The position numbers and the translations under genes were made by a program. A model generated the notes under the pieces. That model did not search any database. It had not been told where the DNA came from and saw only the letters and a list, made by a program, of their open reading frames with translations. From Pseudonocardiales bacterium (GTDB lineage: Bacteria; Actinomycetota; Actinomycetes; Mycobacteriales; Pseudonocardiaceae), in contig JAFAXZ010000178.1 of the NCBI GenBank assembly GCA_019240665.1, forward strand, positions 1 to 42,655: a stretch of DNA of 42,655 nucleotides, given 5' to 3'. Shown piece by piece: positions 17,444 through 29,277 of the stretch. Within the stretch, counting starts at the first letter, position 1; each line of letters opens with the position of its first letter.

Positions 17444-17537
17444 AACGCGGCATCATACGGTTCGTCAGTGGGCAACGGTGCTCGATACGGGTTCGAGCAC
17501 CACGGTGGCCGCGTTTGCCCCCTTCGACGCCATGCCC

Positions 17538-18575
17538 TCACAGCCGTTCTTTCGTCAGCGTCTTGAGCAAGGCATACGCAGTAGGGATCACGGTGTCCCG
17601 CCGTGTCCATGAGCCGTTGGTGAGCGCGATGACACCGACGTCGGCTTGGCGGCAAAAGCCGAGGAAGACAGTAAAGCCGCGGGTGGCGCCGCTGTGGAAG
17701 AACAGCTCATAGCGACGGAAGGCGCGATGGTTCCATACCAGGCAGATACTGTCTTTGCCTCGGACGGCCGCTCGCGGCATCTGGACGGCACGCAACGCGT
17801 CGGTCAGCGGGGTGGACTGCGGGTGCAGCTGGGCGTCGAGGTAGCGCAGCAGATCGGTGGCGCTGGAGCGCAGGGCACCCGCAGGGGCGAGCGCGTCCAT
17901 CTCCCACGGCGGTACGGGCTGGGCACGACGGTATCCGCTGGCGCAGCCGGGATCAGCGACGGCCCGGGTCTCGGTCAGGCCCAGCGGGTGGCAGACGCGA
18001 TCAATGACCAGTCCTGGGTAGTCTCTTCCTGCGGCGTTGGCCAGCAGCTGTCCGAGCAATCCCACTCCGAAGTTGGAATACCGCACCCGGGTGCCCGGCG
18101 GGTACCGAGGCCGGATGCGGGTGGTGGCCCGGTAGAGGTCATGGAGGCGGTAGCCGGCGTAGGGGTTGGTCCACCAGGTGGAGACCATCGGCAACAGCAA
18201 GTTGGTCGGCACGCGAGGTAATCCACCGGTATGGGTGGCCAGGTGTGCCAATGTGATTGACTCGGCAGCCGTACGGCGCGGGAGGGCTCCAGGCGGCAAG
18301 TAGGCGGTGATCGGGTCGTCGTAGCCGACCTCGCCACGGACGGCCATCTCGGCCAGCAGCAGCGCGGTAAAGGTCTTGGTGACCGAACCCAGCTCAAACA
18401 GGGTGTGCGCGTTCACCGCGGTGTCCGTGTGCCAGGCGGGTGTGCCGTGGCAGGCCACCGCCCGCTCACCACCCCACAGAGCGGCCAGCACGGTAGCCGG
18501 CCCATGGCTGGCGGCGGCCATCGCCCGCGATGGCGCATCCAACCACCCGGCCAGGTCAGTGCGGGTGCTGGTCAC
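17538..18575 (-). CDS. Serine hydrolase of the beta-lactamase/penicillin-binding (class C) fold
   Basis: LFELGSVTKTFTALLLAEM (SxxK), VRYSNFGVGLLG (YxN), FFHSGATRGF (HxG). ATG overlaps upstream TGA. Confidence 0.9.
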   Translation of the reverse strand: MTSTRTDLAGWLDAPSRAMAAASHGPATVLAALWGGERAVACHGTPAWHTDTAVNAHTLFELGSVTKTFTALLLAEMAVRGEVGYDDPITAYLPPGALPRRTAAESITLAHLATHTGGLPRVPTNLLLPMVSTWWTNPYAGYRLHDLYRATTRIRPRYPPGTRVRYSNFGVGLLGQLLANAAGRDYPGLVIDRVCHPLGLTETRAVADPGCASGYRRAQPVPPWEMDALAPAGALRSSATDLLRYLDAQLHPQSTPLTDALRAVQMPRAAVRGKDSICLVWNHRAFRRYELFFHSGATRGFTVFLGFCRQADVGVIALTNGSWTRRDTVIPTAYALLKTLTKERL

Positions 18576-19516
18576 GGTGCGGCTGAGGGCACCTGGGTGG
18601 CCTGGGTCATCCGGCGGGAAACAGCCAACGTTCCGGCGATCGCGGCAACGAGAGTCGGGTGATAGTGGTTGCGAAACGCCTTGGCAACCTCCCGCGGCAC
18701 CCGCACCGGCCCGTAAGGCACCAATCCGTCGGCATGTTGGGCGCCGGCCAGGTATTCCCAGGCCTGCGGATAAAAATCAGGCTCGGTGAGGCACAAATCG
18801 ACGATCAACAACTCGGCGATCAGATCCCACTGACCAGCTTCGAGATAGACCTCCAACCAGGCCGGCAACCAGGCATGCAGGTAGACCTGCACATGATTCG
18901 GCAAGCCGCTGGGATGGGCACCCCAATCGGTGAGGTGAAAGACCGTATGGGTCATCGCATACAAGGTGAGGAAGTCGACCGCCCACGGCTCGGGGGTGCC
19001 GCCCAGCCAGGTACGAGCGGTCAGAGTCGCGATGTCGGCGCGGTCGGGCAGGCCCAGAGTACGGTTGGCGTTAACCACCGCCAGCGCCCGGTTGGGCATG
19101 AGCTCGGCTACCTGCGCCGCGCGCAAGCCGCCCAGGTGCGCAAGCAACTCCGCTAGCTGTCGGTGGTGGTACCCGGCGCGAACGAACGGCGCGTAGACCT
19201 CCATCGGATACGTGGTAACCGGGTTGGCGCGCTGCAACTCATACAACACCTCACCGCCGCGCAGCTGCCGCCAGGCAAACTCGACCAGCGTAGCGGCGAT
19301 GTGCGCCTGCCGGTGCCCGGCTGCTCCCTCGCGGATCACCAGGGATCCAACCAGCGCCAACTCACCGAGTGGTTTGATCTTCCCATCGGCATCGACTTGG
19401 TCGGGCGGCACCTGCTCCGGCAGCGTGAAGTGCTCGACAGCCGCGTCCAGCCAGCCCAGCGCGCGCCCCGCCACCTGCTGCGCTGTCGCGGCAGCAGCAG
19501 CTGCGGACGATGTCAC
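18572..19516 (-). CDS. Uncharacterised alpha-helical protein, DUF6895-like
   Basis: LGWLDAAVEHFTLPEQ...KPLGELALVGSLV...FLTLYAMTHTVFHLTDWGAHPSGLPNHVQVYLHAWLPAWLEVYLEAGQWDLIAELLIVDLCL. Family name from memory only. GTG start coupled to upstream TGA (GTGA). Confidence 0.7.
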   Translation of the reverse strand: MTSSAAAAAATAQQVAGRALGWLDAAVEHFTLPEQVPPDQVDADGKIKPLGELALVGSLVIREGAAGHRQAHIAATLVEFAWRQLRGGEVLYELQRANPVTTYPMEVYAPFVRAGYHHRQLAELLAHLGGLRAAQVAELMPNRALAVVNANRTLGLPDRADIATLTARTWLGGTPEPWAVDFLTLYAMTHTVFHLTDWGAHPSGLPNHVQVYLHAWLPAWLEVYLEAGQWDLIAELLIVDLCLTEPDFYPQAWEYLAGAQHADGLVPYGPVRVPREVAKAFRNHYHPTLVAAIAGTLAVSRRMTQATQVPSAAP

Positions 19517-20244
19517 GAGACTGACCCCTCCCGGCTGCGACGCGCCACCGCGAGTTCCAGCAACAGCCGAGCGTTCGGCTCGGCGACCAGCTCCACATGT
19601 CGCATCACCGGCTCCAGCGGAAACCACGGATCCTCCACCGGCTCATTTTCGGCGAGCAGCCAGCGGACCAGCCGCACGGCGGTCAGATAATCCCGACGCA
19701 GCATGGCCCAGGTCACCCCTCGGGCCACCTCCTGCGGGTATCGGCGCACCTGAGCGTGCACGGGGCTGTCCACACCAGGTGAGGCCAGCGGCGATAACTG
19801 CGCTAGCACTACCGCCCACCGTAGCCAGCCGCGGTCCCGGCCAACACCCGCTCCCCGCGGATAGGGTCGGGCGAATCCGCGCGCACCCAGGCGGGTCAGC
19901 ACCTGGCCGGTGGCCCAGTCCCGCAGTGCCCGTACCGGCACCCCGCCTTCGAGCTGGCTCGCTATCTGGGCACCTGGCGCGGCCATCGGAAAGACGCGCA
20001 GGCTGGCCGCTACCATCTCTGCATCCTCCGCGCTAAACCGGTGCCCGCTCAACACGAACGGCGCGAGGGCATCCGGGCCGAGTATCCGGAGCGCGGCCAG
20101 TCCCGCCATACCCTCAGACCCGGGGAGCTGGTCGCGGAGTCGGAAAACACCGTCCGCACTCCCCAGGGCACACACAACGCTCGCGGCCAGCCTCTCCACC
20201 GCCGCGGCGTACACCACCCGCGGCGAACCGGAGACCACCGACAT
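19513..20244 (-). CDS. Uncharacterised protein in peptide/serine hydrolase operon
   Basis: MSVVSGSPRVVYAAAVERLAASVVCALG... continuous ORF; starts 4 nt after the stop of the upstream 65-aa ORF and ends overlapping the next start. Confidence 0.7.
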   Translation of the reverse strand: MSVVSGSPRVVYAAAVERLAASVVCALGSADGVFRLRDQLPGSEGMAGLAALRILGPDALAPFVLSGHRFSAEDAEMVAASLRVFPMAAPGAQIASQLEGGVPVRALRDWATGQVLTRLGARGFARPYPRGAGVGRDRGWLRWAVVLAQLSPLASPGVDSPVHAQVRRYPQEVARGVTWAMLRRDYLTAVRLVRWLLAENEPVEDPWFPLEPVMRHVELVAEPNARLLLELAVARRSREGSVS

Positions 20245-20248
20245 GTCG

Positions 20249-20446
20249 CTATTCGTCGTCCGGGTCGTCCGTCGGCTCCGTTGGCGAGACCAGGGCAAGA
20301 ACAAGAGCGCTAGCTGGCGGACTGTAGAGCGGCGGGTCGGCAACCAGGCGCTCCGAAGGCTCCATCAACTCCGCCACCGCAGTCTGCTCCTGGTCCGAGG
20401 CCACCAACCCCGCTCCGACCGTATGGGGTGTTTCTGTCAGCTCCAT
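20249..20446 (-). CDS. Small 65-aa protein, candidate precursor or regulatory peptide
   Basis: MELTETPHTVGAGLVASDQEQTAVAELMEPSERLVADPPLYSPPASALVLALVSPTEPTDDPDDE*, with GGAGGAGCAAGCGTC before the ATG. Confidence 0.65.
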   Translation of the reverse strand: MELTETPHTVGAGLVASDQEQTAVAELMEPSERLVADPPLYSPPASALVLALVSPTEPTDDPDDE

Positions 20447-20507
20447 GACGCTTGCTCCTCCCACTCGACTCCACTGCTTGCAGCAGAGCACCCACTCACG
20501 TCACTTT

Positions 20508-20577
20508 TCATATATAGCCTAAGAAATACACAACATCGATTTCTCTATCAGGTGATTCCCGGCTCTATCAGGTGATT
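20508..20577 (-). promoter_or_regulatory. Candidate promoter with upstream 15-bp direct repeat (CTCTATCAGGTGATT x2, 20-bp period)
   Basis: Plus-strand copies at 20543-20557 and 20563-20577. On the minus strand they lie just upstream of an AT-rich TATATAT -10-like element near 20509-20516, upstream of the 65-aa ORF. Confidence 0.5.
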
Positions 20578-20765
20578 TCTGACGGTGGGACACTCCCATT
20601 CATCCGCCTAAACTGCTCGCCTGCGATAATTGGGACGTAACACCCCGTCGCCATTGGCAGCACCGAGCGTCACTAGCCTCAGCTCTTCACGATCTTGGCG
20701 GCGTGCCTGGGGTTGGATACGCAGAATAACGACCTCTCACGGGTAGCCCACGCGGTGGTCATTGC

Positions 20766-21701
20766 CTAAGTCGCGTCGTCGTAGCGGGGTGTCGCGTCAT
20801 CCGATGGCACGTGTTCCACCTGATGATCCAGCGGCGAGGGCTGGTCAGGGTCGAGATCGTCCCAGCCCTGCTCGGCTCGTCGGTGCGCGACGGCGCGGTC
20901 ATGCGCCCGAGCGATCAGCACCGCGGTCTCGAACAGCACGACTAGTGCGAAGGCCAGCGCCAACATGGAGATTGGATCGTTGCCGGGGGTGGCGACTGCG
21001 GCCACGACGAACAGCCCGAACAGGATCCCGCGTTGCCAACGCTTCAACTTCGCATACGGCAGCACACCGACCCGGTTGAGCATCACCACCAGCAGCGGCA
21101 GCTCGAAGGTCAAGCCGAAAACCGCCAGCATGGTGAGCAGGAAGCTGACATAGGACTGACCTGTCAACGCGGTAATGAACTGGCCGCCGCCGAGGTTCGC
21201 CAAGAAGGACAGGCCAGTAGGCACCACGTAGTAGGCGAGGACGGCACCCCCGGCGAATAGCACACTCGCCGTACCGACGAAAGTCAGCGCGAACTTACGC
21301 TCCTTGTCATAAAGGCCAGGCGTAATGAACGCCCATATCTGATAGATCCAGATCGGAGCGGTCAACACCGCACCCGCCGCAACGCCCACCTCCATTCGGA
21401 GGGTGAACACCTCAAACGGGGCGGTCTGCAGCAATTGACACCGGCCCGGATTCGGGGTCAGCCGTAGCGTGGGGGGCAGAGCGCAATACGGGCCAGTGAG
21501 CAGGTCGCCGAGGCTGGGCAAGCCGAACGGCGACACCCCCCACCAGACGAACCCGAGGACGCCGCCGAACGCGATCGCCGACAGCGCGATTAACAATCGG
21601 TAGCGCAGCTCGCGAAGGTGCTCCATGAAGGGCATGCGGCCCTCCGGATTCATCTTGCGCCGGCGGCCCGGTCGAGCTGGAAAACGCATCCCGCTCACCA
21701 C
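20766..21701 (-). CDS. tatC: Twin-arginine translocase subunit TatC
   Basis: MPFMEHLRELRYRLLIALSAIAFGGVLGFVWW, MRMEVGVAAGAVLTAPIWIYQIWAFITPGLYDKERKFA, FGLTFELPLLVVMLNRVGVL, ATPGNDPISML. Confidence 0.94.
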   Translation of the reverse strand: MVSGMRFPARPGRRRKMNPEGRMPFMEHLRELRYRLLIALSAIAFGGVLGFVWWGVSPFGLPSLGDLLTGPYCALPPTLRLTPNPGRCQLLQTAPFEVFTLRMEVGVAAGAVLTAPIWIYQIWAFITPGLYDKERKFALTFVGTASVLFAGGAVLAYYVVPTGLSFLANLGGGQFITALTGQSYVSFLLTMLAVFGLTFELPLLVVMLNRVGVLPYAKLKRWQRGILFGLFVVAAVATPGNDPISMLALAFALVVLFETAVLIARAHDRAVAHRRAEQGWDDLDPDQPSPLDHQVEHVPSDDATPRYDDAT

Positions 21702-22048
21702 TCCTCGCCATCAGCGGATAGTGCCGTTGCGGCACCGGAATTTCCCAACCCGGACGGAATACCCATTGCGGGCCCCCTCTCGTGCCTCGGGTGCGGGATC
21801 GATGCTACGCGGCCGATGATGGGTGGGAGCTGTCCAGAGTTCCGCCAGTTGCGGTGGCGTCGCCGGTCCAACTGCACCCGCAGTGCAGCGGTCCGCGCCG
21901 CCAGCAAGCCCGTGCGATCGACCCAGTGAGCACGGCTGCGGTGCACCGTCCCGGCCAGCCGGCGCGCTGGGCCGGCCAGTCGCGTCAGCAACGTGAGCAG
22001 TACCACGACGCCAGCGGCGGCCGCCAACACGCTGATCAGGTAAGGCAC
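21695..22048 (-). CDS. Small single-TM membrane protein between pafC and tatC
   Basis: (GTG)PYLISVLAAAAGVVVLLTLLTRLAGPARRLAGTVHRSRAHWVDRTGLLAARTAALRVQLDRRRHR...; starts about 10 nt after the pafC stop, stop overlaps tatC start. Confidence 0.55.
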   Translation of the reverse strand: MPYLISVLAAAAGVVVLLTLLTRLAGPARRLAGTVHRSRAHWVDRTGLLAARTAALRVQLDRRRHRNWRNSGQLPPIIGRVASIPHPRHERGPAMGIPSGLGNSGAATALSADGEEW

Positions 22049-22058
22049 ACTGATGACG

Positions 22059-23021
22059 TTAGCTCGCCTCGTGCGAGGGCAGGTGGCTGGACCTGCGCAC
22101 CGCCGCGAGGGCCCGCTGCGCCACCGCCGCAGCCAACTCGGCGGGTTCCCGGACAACGACGTCGGCGCCCAACCCCAGCACCAGACGCACCATCCACCCG
22201 GTCTCGGCGTACCGCATTCGCACAGTCGCGGCTCCCCCTTCACCCTCGATCAGCTCGTCCACCGGGTAGTACTCAGCGACCCAGCGAGCGTCCGGGGCCA
22301 GGGTAAGCACGGCGATCTGCTGGCCGGGTTGGGCGCGGAACAGCCCGGCGGAGGAGTCAGTGGGGCGGGCGTGCGGTGGTGGCACCGCCGGTTCATCCAG
22401 GGTTACGACATGCTCGATGCGATCCAGCCGAAACAGCCGCACGTCCTCGGCGACGCGGCACCAGGCCTCCAGATAGCTGCGTCCTTCGACCAAAAGTAGG
22501 CGCATCGGGTCCACGGTGCGCTCACTCACCGTGTCACGGGACGGTGTGTAGTAGCGGATGCGCAGCGCGCGGTGGCCTTCCAGCGCGTCGCGCACCGCGG
22601 TGAGCGCGGCCTCTTCCCCCCTTGCCAAGCCGACTACCACACCGTCGGCCTGCCCCGCTGCCGCCTCGATCTTGGCCAGTGCCCGGCGCACCGACCCGGC
22701 GTCCACCACGCCAGGCATCTCGGCTAGCGCCCGCAGCGCCACGACTAGGGCGATCGCCTCCGCGCCGGACAGTCGCAGCGGGCGACGCATCCCGGCGTCG
22801 AAGGTGACGGTCACAGTGTCACCCTCGAAGGACAGGTCAATGAGGTCACCGGGCCCGTAACCAGGCAGCCCACACATCCACAGCAGCTCCAAGTCACGGC
22901 GCACCTGCCGGACTGTGACGGAAAAGTCGGAGGCCACCTCCTCGATCGGCACACCGGGCCGAGCCAGCAGATAAGGCACCAAGGCCAGCAGCCGGGGCAA
23001 CCGCTCCGTGACCCCTGCCAT
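22059..23021 (-). CDS. pafC: WYL-domain transcriptional regulator PafC
   Basis: MAGVTERLPRLLALVPYLLARPGVPIEEVASDFSVTVRQVRRDLELLWMCGLPGYGPGDLIDL; ATG overlaps pafB TGA. Confidence 0.92.
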   Translation of the reverse strand: MAGVTERLPRLLALVPYLLARPGVPIEEVASDFSVTVRQVRRDLELLWMCGLPGYGPGDLIDLSFEGDTVTVTFDAGMRRPLRLSGAEAIALVVALRALAEMPGVVDAGSVRRALAKIEAAAGQADGVVVGLARGEEAALTAVRDALEGHRALRIRYYTPSRDTVSERTVDPMRLLLVEGRSYLEAWCRVAEDVRLFRLDRIEHVVTLDEPAVPPPHARPTDSSAGLFRAQPGQQIAVLTLAPDARWVAEYYPVDELIEGEGGAATVRMRYAETGWMVRLVLGLGADVVVREPAELAAAVAQRALAAVRRSSHLPSHEAS

Positions 23022-23995
23022 CAGCCTGCGCTCCCGGCGGCCGCCACCAGCCGGGCCCGCACCGCGGCAGCCAGTTCGGCGGGTTCCAGCACCACGGCGT
23101 CTGGCCCAAGCCCGGCTATCCACCGGGCGGCGACGTCATAACCCGGCAGCTCCACCGCCACGAGGTCGCCTGCGACTCCGTCCAGGGCCATCCTGCCCAG
23201 CACCGTTGCGCGTCGGCGGAGGCCGTGTGCGCGGCCCTCTGCCAGCCATAGCCGGGCGGTGTGTGCCACCGGCGGCGGTTCCGCGGAACCCGCCACGATT
23301 GCCAGAAGATCTACTCCTGCTGGGCGCCGCACCGCCCCCGAGGGACCGACAGTGCGCACCGGACCGACTATCCGGGAGATCCGGAAGCAGCGGGTCGCAT
23401 CCCGGTCTCGGTCGTGTCCCACCACGTACCAGCGGCCCCGCCAGGACACCACCCCCCACGGCTCAAGGGTGCGAGCCGTGGGCTGCCCGGCGGGATGTTT
23501 GCGGTGGGGAAACGTCACGACCTGCCCCGCCTGGACCGCCGAGATCAACGGGATCAGCGCCGGCTCGCTGGCGCGCACCCGTGGTTGCACGACCACCGAA
23601 GGCTCGGTGTCCACCTCCACCCCGGCGGCGCGCAGCTTGAGCAGAGCGCCATGCGCGGCCCCGGCCAGTTGCGGGGAATCCCACAGCCGGGCGGCCAAGG
23701 CGACTGCGGCGGCCTCCTCGGGTTCGAGGTCGATGTCGGGCAGCTCGTAGTCCCGGCGCGCGATGCGGTACCCCTCGCGGGCGTCGAACCCCGGGGCCCG
23801 GCCGGTCTCCAGGGGGACACCCAGTTCGCGCAGCTCAGCCTTATCCCGCTCGAACATCCGGAAGAACGCCTCGTCGGAAGGGGCATCGGCGTAGCCGGGC
23901 ACGATCCGCCGGACCCGTTCAGCGGGCAGGTACTGCCGGCTGGATAACAGGCACAGCACCAGGTTGACCAGACGCTCGACGCGGGCGGACGACAC
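23021..23995 (-). CDS. pafB: WYL-domain transcriptional regulator PafB
   Basis: (GTG)SSARVERLVNLVLCLLSSRQYLPAERVRRIVPGYADAPSDEAFFRMFERDKAELRELGVPLE; located upstream of pafC. Confidence 0.92.
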   Translation of the reverse strand: MSSARVERLVNLVLCLLSSRQYLPAERVRRIVPGYADAPSDEAFFRMFERDKAELRELGVPLETGRAPGFDAREGYRIARRDYELPDIDLEPEEAAAVALAARLWDSPQLAGAAHGALLKLRAAGVEVDTEPSVVVQPRVRASEPALIPLISAVQAGQVVTFPHRKHPAGQPTARTLEPWGVVSWRGRWYVVGHDRDRDATRCFRISRIVGPVRTVGPSGAVRRPAGVDLLAIVAGSAEPPPVAHTARLWLAEGRAHGLRRRATVLGRMALDGVAGDLVAVELPGYDVAARWIAGLGPDAVVLEPAELAAAVRARLVAAAGSAG

Positions 23996-24020
23996 GGGTG
24001 GCAGCCTAACTGTGGACAGC

Positions 24021-24097
24021 CCGTGAGTGGCGATGCGAGCTCCCGGCTCGCCGTGGACTGGCACTGCCACTCACGGCGCTCATAGCGAAGCTATGAG
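24021..24097. repeat. Nested palindromic element at the pafA/pafB junction
   Basis: ccgtgagtggc (24021-24031) pairs with gccactcacgg (24066-24076); inner gcgagc (24035-24040) with gctcgc (24046-24051); second hairpin ctcatagc-gaa-gctatgag (24079-24097) overlaps the pafA stop. Confidence 0.8.
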
Positions 24098-25438
24098 CCG
24101 CTCTACCCGCTCGTCCACCGCGCGGAACGGGTCCTTGCACAACACGGTGCGCTGGGCCTGGTCGTTGAGCTTGAGATGCACCCAGTCGACGGTGAAGTCG
24201 CGACCTGCGGCCTGAGCAGCGGCGATGAAGTCGCCGCGCAGCTTGGCTCGGGTGGTGGCGGGTGGGGTGTCCTTGGCGGCTTCGATCTCGCCGTCGTCGG
24301 TCACCCGGTCGACCAGCGCTTTGCGCTGTAACAGGTCGAACAGCCCGCGGCCGCGGCGGATATCGTGGTAGGCGAGGTCCAATTGAGCGATCCGCGGGTT
24401 GGACAGGTCCATCCGATGCTTGGCCCGGTAGCGTTCCACCAGCCGGTGCTTGATTGCCCAGTCGACCTCACGATCGATCAGGCCAAGATCGTGCTGCTCC
24501 ACAGCACGCAGCGTGCGGTCCCACAGCTCCATGACCCGGTCGGTCAGTGGATCGGACCCGCGGCGGGCGACGTGATCCGCGGCGCGCGCGTAGTACTCCC
24601 GCTGGATCTCCAACGCAGAGGCCTCGCGGCCGCCGGCCAGCCGCACCCCGCGCCGGCCGGTGAGATCGTGGCTGATCTCACGGATCGCCCGGATCGGGTT
24701 GTCCAGCGTGAAGTCGCGAAACGCAACGCCCTCCTCCACCATCTCCAAGACCAAGTTAGCGGTGCCCACCTTGAGCAAAGTGGTCACCTCGGACATGTTC
24801 GAATCGCCAACGATCACGTGCAGGCGGCGATACCGTTCGGCGTCGGCGTGCGGCTCATCCCGGGTGTTGATGATCGGGCGGGAACGGGTGGTCGCCGAGG
24901 AGACTCCCTCCCAGATGTGTTCAGCCCGCTGCGACAGGCAGTACACCGCACCGCGGGGTGTCTGCAGCACCTTACCCGCGCCGCAGACCAGCTGCCGGGT
25001 GACCAGGAAGGGCAACAGCACATCGGCGATCCGCGAGAATTCACCAGCACGAGCTACCAAATAGTTTTCGTGGCAGCCGTAGGAGTTACCTGCGGAGTCG
25101 GTGTTGTTCTTGAACAGGAAGATGTCGCCGCCAATGCCCTCGTCGGCCAGCCGCCGCTCGGCGTCCACCAGGAGGTCCTCGAGGATCCGCTCGCCGGCCT
25201 TGTCATGGGTCACCAGCTGAGCCAAGTCATCACACTCAGCAGTGGCGTACTCCGGGTGCGAGCCCACGTCCAAGTAGAGGCGGGACCCGTTGCGCAGGAA
25301 GACGTTGGACGAGCGACCCCATGAGACCACCCGGCGGAACAGATAGCGGGCGACTTCGTCCGGCGACAGCCTGCGCTGGCCGTGGAAGGTGCAGGTGACC
25401 CCGAATTCGGTCTCAATGCCGAAGATCCGCCGCTGCAT
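24080..25438 (-). CDS. pafA: Pup-protein ligase PafA
   Basis: [70 protein letters not shown]. Confidence 0.97.
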
Positions 25439-25647
25439 GCCTTCCAGCCTAGGCCGCTGTGGCCATCCTGCAGGCCGTCCGTACGGGCTCACTTAAGCTG
25501 TGACGGTGCAGAGTTGGTTGCGCAGAGTAGCGCAGGAAATCAACCGCGCCGACCGCGAGCTGGTACGGTGTAGCGCGGCCATCCCACGCTGGCGCCTGCT
25601 GATCCGGAGCCCGACCCGGAACGCTGAGGACACCCAGCCGGCGCCAG

Positions 25648-26448
25648 TCAGGTGCCGGTGCTGGGCCCACCGTTCGTGCCATCGGCGCCCGTACCGGTGT
25701 CTGACGGCATAGGGCCAGGGAGGTCCTCGGCGGCCGAGGCCTCCGCGCTGGTGAGCAGCGCGGTGAGGGCAGTCCCGGTGATGCGGCGGAAGGCGCGGCG
25801 CGGACGGGACCGGTCCAAGACCGCGACCTCGAGCTGGCCGACGCCCAGGATGCGTGTTCCGGCCCCGTTGACGCTGGTGGAGACCGAGCTCAGGGCAGTC
25901 ACTGCGGCAGCGACGGCCTCCGCAGTGTCCATGTCCTGTCGGAAGGGCTCCTTGAGCGCCGTGGAGATGACGTCGGCCTGGCCTCCCATCACGACGAAGT
26001 CCGGCTCGTCAACGATCGAGCCGTCGTAGGTCAGGTGGTAGAGCTGATCGGAGTCGGGGTTGGAACCCACCTCGGCGACGCACAGCTCCACCTCGAAAGG
26101 CTTCTGCTGCTCTGAGAAGATCGTCCCCAAAGTCTGTGCGTAGGCGTTGGCCAACGCCCGTCCGGTTACGTCACGCCGATCGTAGGAGTAGCCGCGAACG
26201 TCGGCGTGCCGGATCCCGGCTTGGCGGAGGTTCTCGTACTCATTGTAGCGGCCGACGGCGGCGAAGCCGATCCGATCGTAGATCTCCGAAACCTTGTGCA
26301 GCGCTGTGGACAGGTTCTCGGCGACGAACAGCACGCCACGTGAGTAACTGAGCACGACGACACCGCGGCCCCGGGCGATGCCCTTGCGGGCGAGCTCCGA
26401 GCGGTCGCGCATGACCTGCTCGACCGAGGCGTAGAACGGCATTGTCAC
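25648..26448 (-). CDS. prcA: 20S proteasome subunit alpha PrcA
   Basis: [81 protein letters not shown]. Confidence 0.97.
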
Positions 26449-26499
26449 AGCGGGAACTCCTGGGTGGAGACGGATTCAGCAGGAAAGATGAGGGTAGCG

Positions 26500-27360
26500 T
26501 CAGCCGCCGGGCTTGCGCTTGCGGGTTTCCACCACAAGGTCGGCGACCTGACCGGCCTGCTCGTCGGACATCCGGACAGCCCCGTCCGCTGCGGTGACCG
26601 TGACCACCACCGGGTAGATCTGGTGGACGAGGTCCAACCCGCCGGTCGCACTGTCATCGTCGGCGGCGTCGTACAAGGCCTCCATGGCAACCCGGACAGC
26701 GGCGTCGACCTCCATCATCGGGTCATGCAGCTTTTTCAACGATGAGCGAGCGAACAACGAACCCGAGCCCACTGAGTAATAACCGAGCATCTCGTCGTAT
26801 CGGCCGCCGACAACATCGTAGGAGACGATTCGACCGGCCCGGTCCGGCTCGGTGGAATCGAGGTCGTAGCCGACGAACAGCGGCACCGCTGCTAGCCCCT
26901 GCATGGCGCCTTCGAGATTGCCTCGAACCATGCCGGCCAGTTTGTTCGCCTTGCCGTCCAGGGTCAGCGGCACCCCTTCAATCTTCTCGTAGTGCCGCAG
27001 TTCGACGGCGAACAACCGCACCATCTCCAAGGCGACACCGGCTGTCCCGGCGATACCCACCGCGGAGTAGTCGTCGACGACGAACACTTTCTCCATATCG
27101 CGCTGGGCGATGAGGTTGCCCCTCGTCGCCCGGCGGTCCCCCGCGATGAGCACCCCGCCGCTGAAGGTGGCCGCCACGATGGTCGTGCCGTGCCGGCCGA
27201 CCACCGGTTCAGCGCCAGCCGGCACACTGCTCACCCGGCGACCGGGCAACAGCTCAGGGGACGTCGCGGCGAGGAAATCGGTGAACGACGAGTTGCCCAC
27301 CATGAAGTACGACGCCGGCAAAGCTGCGCCCGGATAGCGCCCGACCGAGGACTGGTCCAT
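26500..27360 (-). CDS. prcB: 20S proteasome subunit beta PrcB
   Basis: Propeptide followed by [51 protein letters not shown] (N-terminal catalytic Thr). Confidence 0.97.
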
Positions 27361-27472
27361 CGGCTGTGATCGTCTCCTTGCTCCCGTTGTCCCAGTTTCT
27401 CCTGTGAGGAGTCTGTCGTGTGCCAGTCACCCGCTGTACCGAACATGATGCCCGGACCGCTCGGCTAGCCTG

Positions 27473-27664
27473 TCACTGGCCGCCCTTCTGGACATAGGCC
27501 CGGACGAAGTCCTCGGCGTTCTCCTCGAGCACATCGTCGATCTCGTCAAGGATCGCGTCCACGTCCTCACCGAGCTTCTCCCGACGTTCCTGACCGACTG
27601 GCGCACCGTCGGTCGTCTCGTCGTCTCCACCGCCGCCTTGGCGTTGTACCTTCTCCCGCGACAT
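27473..27664 (-). CDS. pup: Prokaryotic ubiquitin-like protein Pup (GGQ C-terminus)
   Basis: MSREKVQRQGGGGDDETTDGAPVGQERREKLGEDVDAILDEIDDVLEENAEDFVRAYVQKGGQ*. Confidence 0.97.
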   Translation of the reverse strand: MSREKVQRQGGGGDDETTDGAPVGQERREKLGEDVDAILDEIDDVLEENAEDFVRAYVQKGGQ

Positions 27665-27741
27665 TTCGCCTCCCGACCGAGTTGTTTCAAGCCAAACAGT
27701 ACCCAGCAACGCCAACAACTGCCGCCAGGCCAGTCGGGTGA

Positions 27742-29277
27742 TCAGCCCCGGGTGAGCGCCGCCACCAGCTCCGCGGCCGTGTTCGAGGCATCCAGCAGCG
27801 CCCCGACGTGCGCGCGGGTACCCCGTAGCGGTTCCAAGGTCGGGATTCGGACCAGGGATTCGCGACCGAGATCGAAGATCACCGAGTCCCAGGATGCTGC
27901 GGCCACCTCCGTGGCGTAGCGCTCCAGACACCGACCGCGAAAGTAGGCGCGAGTGTCCTCCGGGGGGCGGGTGATGGCTGCGCGCACCTCCTCCTCGGTG
28001 ACCAACCGTTTCATCGAGCCCCGGGCCACCAGGCGGTTGTACAGGCCCTTGTGCATCCGCACGTCGGAGTACTGTAGATCGACCAGTTGCAGCCGGGGCG
28101 AGCCCCATCCCAGACCGTCCCGGGCCCGGTAGCCCTCAAGTAGCTGCAGCTTGGCCGGCCAGTCCAGCCGGTCGGTGCACTCCATCGGGTCCCGCGCGAG
28201 CGCGTCAAGCACCTCCCCCCAGGTGCTGAGGATGTGCTCAGCGCCCTCGGCTCCGCTATCCAGGCTGCTGTCTGAGGTACTGTCTGGGCCACCGTTGCGC
28301 GCGAAGAACTGCGCGACCCGCTCGTGGTAAGCGCGCTGTAGCTCCAAGCCGGTGAGGTGGCGACCACCGGATATTTCCACCGTCGCCCTCAGGGACGGGT
28401 CGCGGCTGATTGTGTGCACTGCCCGCACTGCATCGACCAAGCGCAGGTCGTCGAAGCGTTCCCCAGCTTCAATCAGGTCCAACACCAACGCCGTGGTACC
28501 GACCTTGAGGTAGGTGGAGTACTCGGCGAGGTTGGCGTCACCAATGATGACGTGCAGCCGCCGGTACTTGTCGGCGTCGGCATGCGGCTCGTCCCGGGTG
28601 TTGATGATGCCACGCTTGAGGGTGGTCTCCAGCCCAACCTCGACCTCGATGTAATCCGCCCGCTGCGACAGCTGGAACCCGGGGTGCTCCCCGGCGGGTC
28701 CGATGCCCACCCGACCGGATCCGCAGATCACCTGGCGGGAGACGAAGAACGGGGTCAACCCGGCGATGACCATCGTGAACGGCGTGGAGCGCGCCATCAA
28801 ATAGTTCTCATGGGTACCGTAGGAGGCGCCCTTGCCATCGACGTTGTTCTTGTATAGCTGGAAGGGAGGCTGATCAGGCACGGTGCGGGCGCGCAACGCG
28901 GCTTCCTCCATGATCCGCTCGCCGGCCTTGTCCCAGACCACCGCGTCGCGCGGATTGGTGACCTCGGGACTGGAGAACTCGGGGTGCGCATGGTCGACGT
29001 AGAGCCGGGCGCCGTTGGTGAGGATAACGTTCGCCGCGCCGAGATCGTCCAATTCCGGATCGGGCTGCGCGATTCCGGGAACACCCAGGTCGAACCCGCG
29101 GGCGTCCCGCAGCGGGGACTCCACCTCGTAGTCCCACCGGGCTCGCTTGGCTCGCGGCACTTCGGCCGCTGCGGCGTAGGCCAGCACAACTTGAGTTGAG
29201 GTCAGGACTGGGTTGGCAGTGCAGTCCCCGGGCACTGAGATGCCGTACTCCACCTCGGTTCCCATGATCCGGCGCAT
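27742..29277 (-). CDS. dop: Depupylase / Pup deamidase Dop
   Basis: [35 protein letters not shown]; located upstream of pup. Confidence 0.95.

Follow-up and report, generated by a model that had tools for sequence, protein, structure and literature searches.

The window analysed here, a stretch of 42,655 nucleotides (nt) of contig JAFAXZ010000178.1 from a Pseudonocardiales bacterium, carries at positions 17538-20446 a cassette of four minus-strand genes in the order small peptide, open reading frame (ORF) 2, DUF6895 protein and PF00144 hydrolase. The first gene (20249..20446, minus strand), recognised from the ORF list, family alignments and the ratio of non-synonymous to synonymous substitution rates (dN/dS), encodes a 65-residue precursor-like peptide, MELTETPHTVGAGLVASDQEQTAVAELMEPSERLVADPPLYSPPASALVLALVSPTEPTDDPDDE, and has an ATG start with GGAGG 5' of it. 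It is followed by ORF2 (19513..20244, minus), a 243-residue all-helical protein without a known family, which serves as the cassette marker and is perhaps a substrate-binding partner, by a DUF6895 protein (PF21836; 18572..19516, minus) of 314 residues from its coupled GTG, a probable peptide epimerase, and by a 345-residue serine hydrolase of the S12 or beta-lactamase fold (PF00144; 17538..18575, minus) that is predicted to be cytoplasmic. The cassette lies between a yegS-type lipid kinase gene and helY on one side and tatC on the other. Both this position and the four coupled genes had been described in a first-pass annotation made by a model from the sequence alone, and both stand, with all ORFs on the minus strand. 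Its account of the spacing was right for the 4-nt gap between the peptide gene and ORF2 and for the GTGA overlap of ORF2 with the DUF6895 gene, but the second overlap, between the DUF6895 and hydrolase genes, is a 4-nt GTGA as well and not ATGA; GTG is the start codon of both downstream genes. An exact overlap of 4 nt recurs across loci at 83 of 111 ORF2-DUF6895 junctions and 69 of 102 DUF6895-hydrolase junctions.

The gene order is found in more than 100 genomes, which is far beyond chance and answers the first-pass annotation's question of whether the four genes occur together elsewhere. The compared loci were gathered through DUF6895, from the window's own family and from GTDB genomes (80 kept of 311 relatives), and their genes were called with a home-made caller that missed some peptides (L042, L056, L137, L210 and others), so that incomplete loci are over-counted. 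The complete four-gene set is present in 96 of the 115 loci that bear ORF2 (93 with one DUF6895 gene, three with two), and many of the remainder are contig ends or contain uncalled small ORFs. Because these first loci had been collected via DUF6895, co-occurrence was also checked without that bias in 248 Streptomyces genomes, where ORF2 was found in 105, DUF6895 in 114 and both in 103 (42%; Fisher 5e-54, uncorrected for relatedness); the two genomes with ORF2 only each hold a marginal partial match. Nearly all of forty further Streptomyces loci have the same gene order, and in an even sample of the phylum (398 genomes) ORF2 occurs in just six, the window's own and five Streptomyces. Among 90 complete loci, at least two flanking gene families are common to about 1% or fewer of those pairs whose DUF6895 proteins are less than 70% identical, which delimits the unit to these four genes, and no transporter or regulator travels with it in those flanks. 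In the sister genome G004, tatC adjoins yegS with about 10 nt between the matching blocks, a clean empty site relative to which the window carries an inserted segment (17469..20762, no strand assigned). Other members of the same genus have the unit at another site or lack it, and plasmid-borne cassettes occur in Kitasatospora and Streptomyces. The cassette is compact and moves horizontally.

The small ORF has the substitution pattern of a coding sequence. Over about 19 close pairs, the dN/dS of the peptide is 0.275, compared with 0.26-0.33 for the three larger proteins; it is 0.22 in the last 30 residues and 0.34 in the remainder, and we therefore conclude that this is a real gene whose C-terminal half is the more constrained. 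Conservation and coding signature of the small ORF had been named beforehand as the point on which the proposal of a peptide-maturation system of the ribosomally synthesised and post-translationally modified peptide (RiPP) type might fail, and here the proposal survived. The conserved leader with a variable core that had also been expected, a common but not universal RiPP trait, was not seen by dN/dS, the constraint running in the opposite direction. The peptides share a common plan. A variable N-terminal part leads to a conserved Glu (E32 in the window peptide), which a spacer separates from a Leu-rich run of about 6-13 residues; Ser-Pro or something similar comes next, and a charged Pro-rich tail ends the peptide. 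Three kinds follow this plan: kind I reads ...LMxEPEAxVSDAPxYxPEAxGxLLLLLLLSPKEPKEPKGK, kind II ends in ...LLSADPxxDEPVEDAFGGVVQNLACAxAF, and kind III reads ...ALDPxExDGxxRDSRECAALALxSGxxxLLLSPPTPRPKKG. Kind I includes the window peptide, whose run is shortened (ALVLALVSP) and whose tail is acidic. Across the family the core is Leu-rich, with 0.25 Cys per peptide. The peptide has no match in Pfam, NCBIfam, PHROGs or PADLOC, an Rfam scan returned nothing, and the conserved tail PKEPKEPK gave no hit when the literature was searched.

The family membership of the third gene is clear (PF21836, E 6e-89, 298.6 bits against a curated cut-off of 23.8). Six residues, E52, Y186, T189, H190, D231 and E235, are invariant in the 45 DUF6895 sequences aligned, and E52, H190, D231 and E235 are kept in the divergent, RiPP-associated members among these 45 too. 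A DUF6895 protein has been reported as a lasso-peptide epimerase (Shi et al. 2026, ACS Catal. 16:1757, as cited in PMC13352647), and by analogy the window protein is probably a peptide epimerase. At six loci, divergent DUF6895 genes from the window's bacterial family adjoin RiPP-type enzymes: LanB, LanC and a flavoprotein (L077), a LanC-like protein and an ATP-binding cassette (ABC) transporter (L074 and L076), a radical S-adenosylmethionine (SAM) enzyme (L071), a prolyl oligopeptidase and a glycosyltransferase (L078), or a P450 (L073). Together with the lasso-peptide report, these settings support the RiPP-like reading first put forward from the window alone. In the DUF6895 tree, the cassette sequences lie on one side of a 100/100 branch and the six RiPP-context sequences on the other; a seventh row labelled as RiPP context, L070, is really a cassette in which the gene caller had broken ORF2. 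The structure predictions proposed in the first-pass annotation gave little by way of fold assignment for ORF2 and DUF6895. The AlphaFold2 model of DUF6895 is confident and all-helical (predicted local distance difference test, pLDDT, 95.6) and resembles alpha/alpha-barrel enzymes and others in the PDB weakly (TM about 0.45, best E 0.03); a sequence comparison with the PDB returned nothing meaningful, and the fold matches, being weak, were not used as evidence. Within L077 (6147-12298), DUF6895 directly adjoins LanB, LanC and a LanD-like flavoprotein, and this locus is likely a lanthipeptide cluster with a peptide epimerase. On a Bacillota plasmid (Pseudalkalibacillus; L178, 6629-8548), an 86-residue ORF, a distant DUF6895 with the motif THTLFYLTDF and a 216-residue ORF follow one another and may form a related peptide system beyond Actinomycetota, and a Cupriavidus plasmid (L177) also carries a distant DUF6895.

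Cassettes with two DUF6895 genes connect this protein with the peptide. Tandem cassettes encode kind III peptides with the patch R[DE][ST]..C upstream of the Leu run, and the patch is present in 24 of 25 distinct peptides accompanied by two DUF6895 genes and in none of 104 accompanied by one, where the counts are of sequences and not of independent events. The exception with two copies (L197) has Ser in place of Cys, and the 104 include four kind III peptides. At L042, a two-copy locus whose peptide had gone uncalled, a targeted search found the near-match NDTRECASLVL...LSPPPPRPRH where it was predicted, which brings the tally for two copies to 25 of 26. Most single-copy kind III DUF6895 proteins group in the tree with the second copies of tandem cassettes, so where the first copy is lost or absent, the Cys patch is lost with it. 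The link between two copies and the Cys patch fits one enzyme per site, and cassettes with two DUF6895 genes would then probably epimerise two sites.

The fourth protein matches PF00144 with an E of 8e-49 and has the motifs S64-x-x-K67, Y166-S-N and H294-S-G; across 103 copies, SxxK, YSN or a close variant and HxG are kept in nearly all. We take this set to be that of the Streptomyces R61 DD-peptidase. A simple hydropathy scan detected neither signal peptide nor membrane segment in the great majority of copies, so the hydrolase is probably cytoplasmic, unlike beta-lactamases and ClbP. An identity as class C beta-lactamase was considered and rejected: the window protein scores 122.6 bits against the NCBIfam cut-off of 415, alignment with class C enzymes places a histidine at the KTG lysine, giving HxG for KTG, and a signal peptide is lacking. 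Relatives of this type with a known function in natural products act at D-residues. The S12-type enzyme SurE depends on a C-terminal D-residue, which natively is D-Leu (PMC11735501), and ClbP cleaves at D-Asn, which it requires (PMC9889268). SurE-type thioesterases of the penicillin-binding protein (PBP) type have a C-terminal lipocalin-like domain (PMC11735501), for which the cassette hydrolase has no room, since PF00144 spans residues 29-324 of 345. In a single case (L048, 5791-8811), a hydrolase without the catalytic Ser and Tyr stands with a peptide without the Leu run, possibly a decayed or re-purposed cassette.

ORF2 has no match in Pfam, NCBIfam, PHROGs or PADLOC. Its AlphaFold2 model is all-helical (pLDDT 88.9) without a fold match in the PDB, where a sequence comparison likewise gave nothing meaningful. 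The idea that it is a DUF6895 paralogue was rejected (hhalign probability 0.2%). From its strict co-occurrence with the other genes and its lack of an enzyme family, we infer that ORF2 probably binds the peptide and presents it to the enzymes.

A short precursor gene that adjoins its modifying enzymes and is conserved with them is the general hallmark of RiPP loci, and this arrangement is found here. That the cassette is a peptide-maturation unit is, in our view, highly probable. The best explanation overall, to which we assign a probability of about 0.6, is a RiPP-like cassette in which DUF6895 epimerises the peptide and the S12 enzyme hydrolyses or cyclises it at the D-residue. The peptide of about 60 residues would be the precursor, and DUF6895 would invert the alpha-carbon of at least one residue in its hydrophobic stretch, an activity reported for the family; the site is our proposal. 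The cytoplasmic hydrolase may then recognise the D-residue and break the chain there, as the behaviour of its relatives suggests, which would free the core from the Ser-Pro tail or close it into a ring. This full order, epimerisation and then cutting or cyclisation, is tentative and in our estimation falls somewhat short of an even chance, reaction order and site being the weakest links of the mechanism. Doubtful, too, is the broader proposition that about 40% of Streptomyces species carry a new RiPP class whose epimerase-made D-residue would be the mark by which a cytoplasmic PBP-type enzyme knows where to cut or cyclise the peptide, the number of D-sites being determined by that of the epimerase genes. 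The cassette is a candidate for such a class, and all that goes beyond a peptide-maturation cassette we infer. Several points weigh against our preferred explanation. The cassette is without a known product, its core lacks the variability of many antimicrobial RiPPs, and no leader protease or transporter was found inside the unit in the compared loci. The link between DUF6895 number and the Cys patch is based on few evolutionary events, and cyclisation is less sure than hydrolysis because the hydrolase, unlike PBP-type cyclases, has no lipocalin domain.

Some of the same observations would suit a small protein that is not processed at all and is instead a permanent subunit or regulator of an ORF2-DUF6895-S12 complex acting on another substrate. 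A C-terminal half as constrained as an enzyme (dN/dS 0.22), a sequence kept across genera and the lack of an exporter in the unit are what one would expect of such a subunit, but relatives differ in the length of the Leu run and in the residues beside it, the peptide varies together with DUF6895 gene number, and most of the readable contexts of related DUF6895 genes are peptide-maturation clusters; we consider this alternative improbable. The conserved core and the missing exporter speak against a classical bacteriocin and would allow for a role in signalling or development. The processed Leu-rich peptide could serve filamentous actinomycetes as a conserved signal, intercellular or morphogenetic, and not as an antimicrobial. 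This suggestion is about what the product is used for and goes together with RiPP-like maturation, which is about how the product is made. It would account for a peptide that is conserved and non-diversifying and for a distribution that takes in 42% of the Streptomyces genomes as well as other filamentous families, with near absence from the rest of the phylum sample. However, the unit is accompanied by no receptor, regulator or exporter and its presence is patchy even inside one genus, and we judge this role rather unlikely.

We find it very improbable that the peptide is a hydrophobic toxin and the cassette a toxin-antitoxin or anti-phage unit. The peptide is indeed small and hydrophobic and the cassette mobile and patchy, yet none of the PADLOC defence models matched at E 0.1, the hydrophobic run, at about 6-13 residues, is not long enough to cross a membrane, and the three partner proteins are not antitoxin-like. 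We give next to no credence to the idea that the hydrolase serves beta-lactam resistance or the cell wall and has its neighbours by chance, which would draw on the PF00144 match and the distant class C similarity: there is no signal peptide, the score of 123 bits compares with a class C cut-off of 415, the KTG lysine is a histidine, and linkage to the other genes is near-invariant.

Under the RiPP-like maturation that we favour, the cassette differs from each system it resembles. It shares with the lasso-peptide epimerase system (Shi et al. 2026, as cited in PMC13352647) the Pfam family by name and a RiPP peptide as substrate, but it is without lasso B and C enzymes and its DUF6895 proteins form their own 100/100 group. 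Neither a B1/B2 protease nor a C cyclase was found among the four window genes or scanned neighbours, with no flanking family shared between loci, and the cassette has no lanthipeptide dehydratase or cyclase and no Ser/Thr/Cys-rich core. MslH, the epimerase of the lasso peptide MS-271, has a different fold. It too is a peptide epimerase acting on a ribosomal precursor, a separate enzyme with a metal-dependent acid/base mechanism according to PMC10406935, but the cassette holds no MslH-type gene. The cassette hydrolase has the same S12-type catalytic residues as the PBP-type thioesterases SurE, WolJ and Ulm16 of nonribosomal pathways, whereas it is a single 345-residue domain beside a ribosomal peptide and without a lipocalin-like domain. 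If our inference holds, the cassette would be a ribosomal version of D-residue-dependent release from nonribosomal peptide synthetases, after the logic of D-Leu-dependent surugamide cyclase. ClbP-type D-Asn prodrug peptidases are likewise S12 peptidases that mature a natural product at a D-residue; they sit in the periplasm on a membrane anchor and have Ser/Thr at the ClbP-188 position, whereas the cassette enzyme is predicted to be cytoplasmic, has no membrane segments and in most copies has the YSN asparagine. TMcin RiPPs (PMC13252029), whose precursor is a membrane helix, were considered and found unrelated. The main text of the decRiPPter paper (PMC7794033) names no such family, and literature searches among open-licence papers found no published description of the four-gene unit.

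Were this interpretation correct, the cassette would be a minimal way of genetically encoding Leu-rich peptides that contain D-residues and are possibly cyclic, S12 enzymes would gain a role in ribosomal peptide maturation, and the DUF6895 family would have a further, common setting besides lasso peptides. No genomes have been mined more for natural products than those of Streptomyces, yet the unit is present in about two-fifths of the species sampled, and its four genes are small enough for one plasmid.

Upstream of the peptide gene, a region with a likely promoter (20447..20765, minus) has 55% G+C compared with 66% for the window. It contains two perfect 15-bp direct repeats, CTCTATCAGGTGATT in plus-strand letters (20543-20557 and 20563-20577; listed on the minus strand), which lie 20 bp apart, about two helical turns, and are operator-like; no further copies were found elsewhere in the window or in the compared loci of other genomes. 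A search for a common promoter motif 5' of the peptide genes mainly enriched the ribosome-binding site. In the tatC neighbourhoods of sister genomes (L160-L169), the genes just 3' of tatC differ between members of the genus, for example ORFs of 251 and 152 residues at L163 and L167, and this site therefore looks like a small insertion hotspot. Beyond tatC, window positions 21700-29277 hold what we take, from gene order and size, to be a Pup-proteasome region (a pair of WYL regulators, a Pup ligase-like gene, proteasome subunits, Pup and a Dop-like gene), which is ordinary in actinomycetes.
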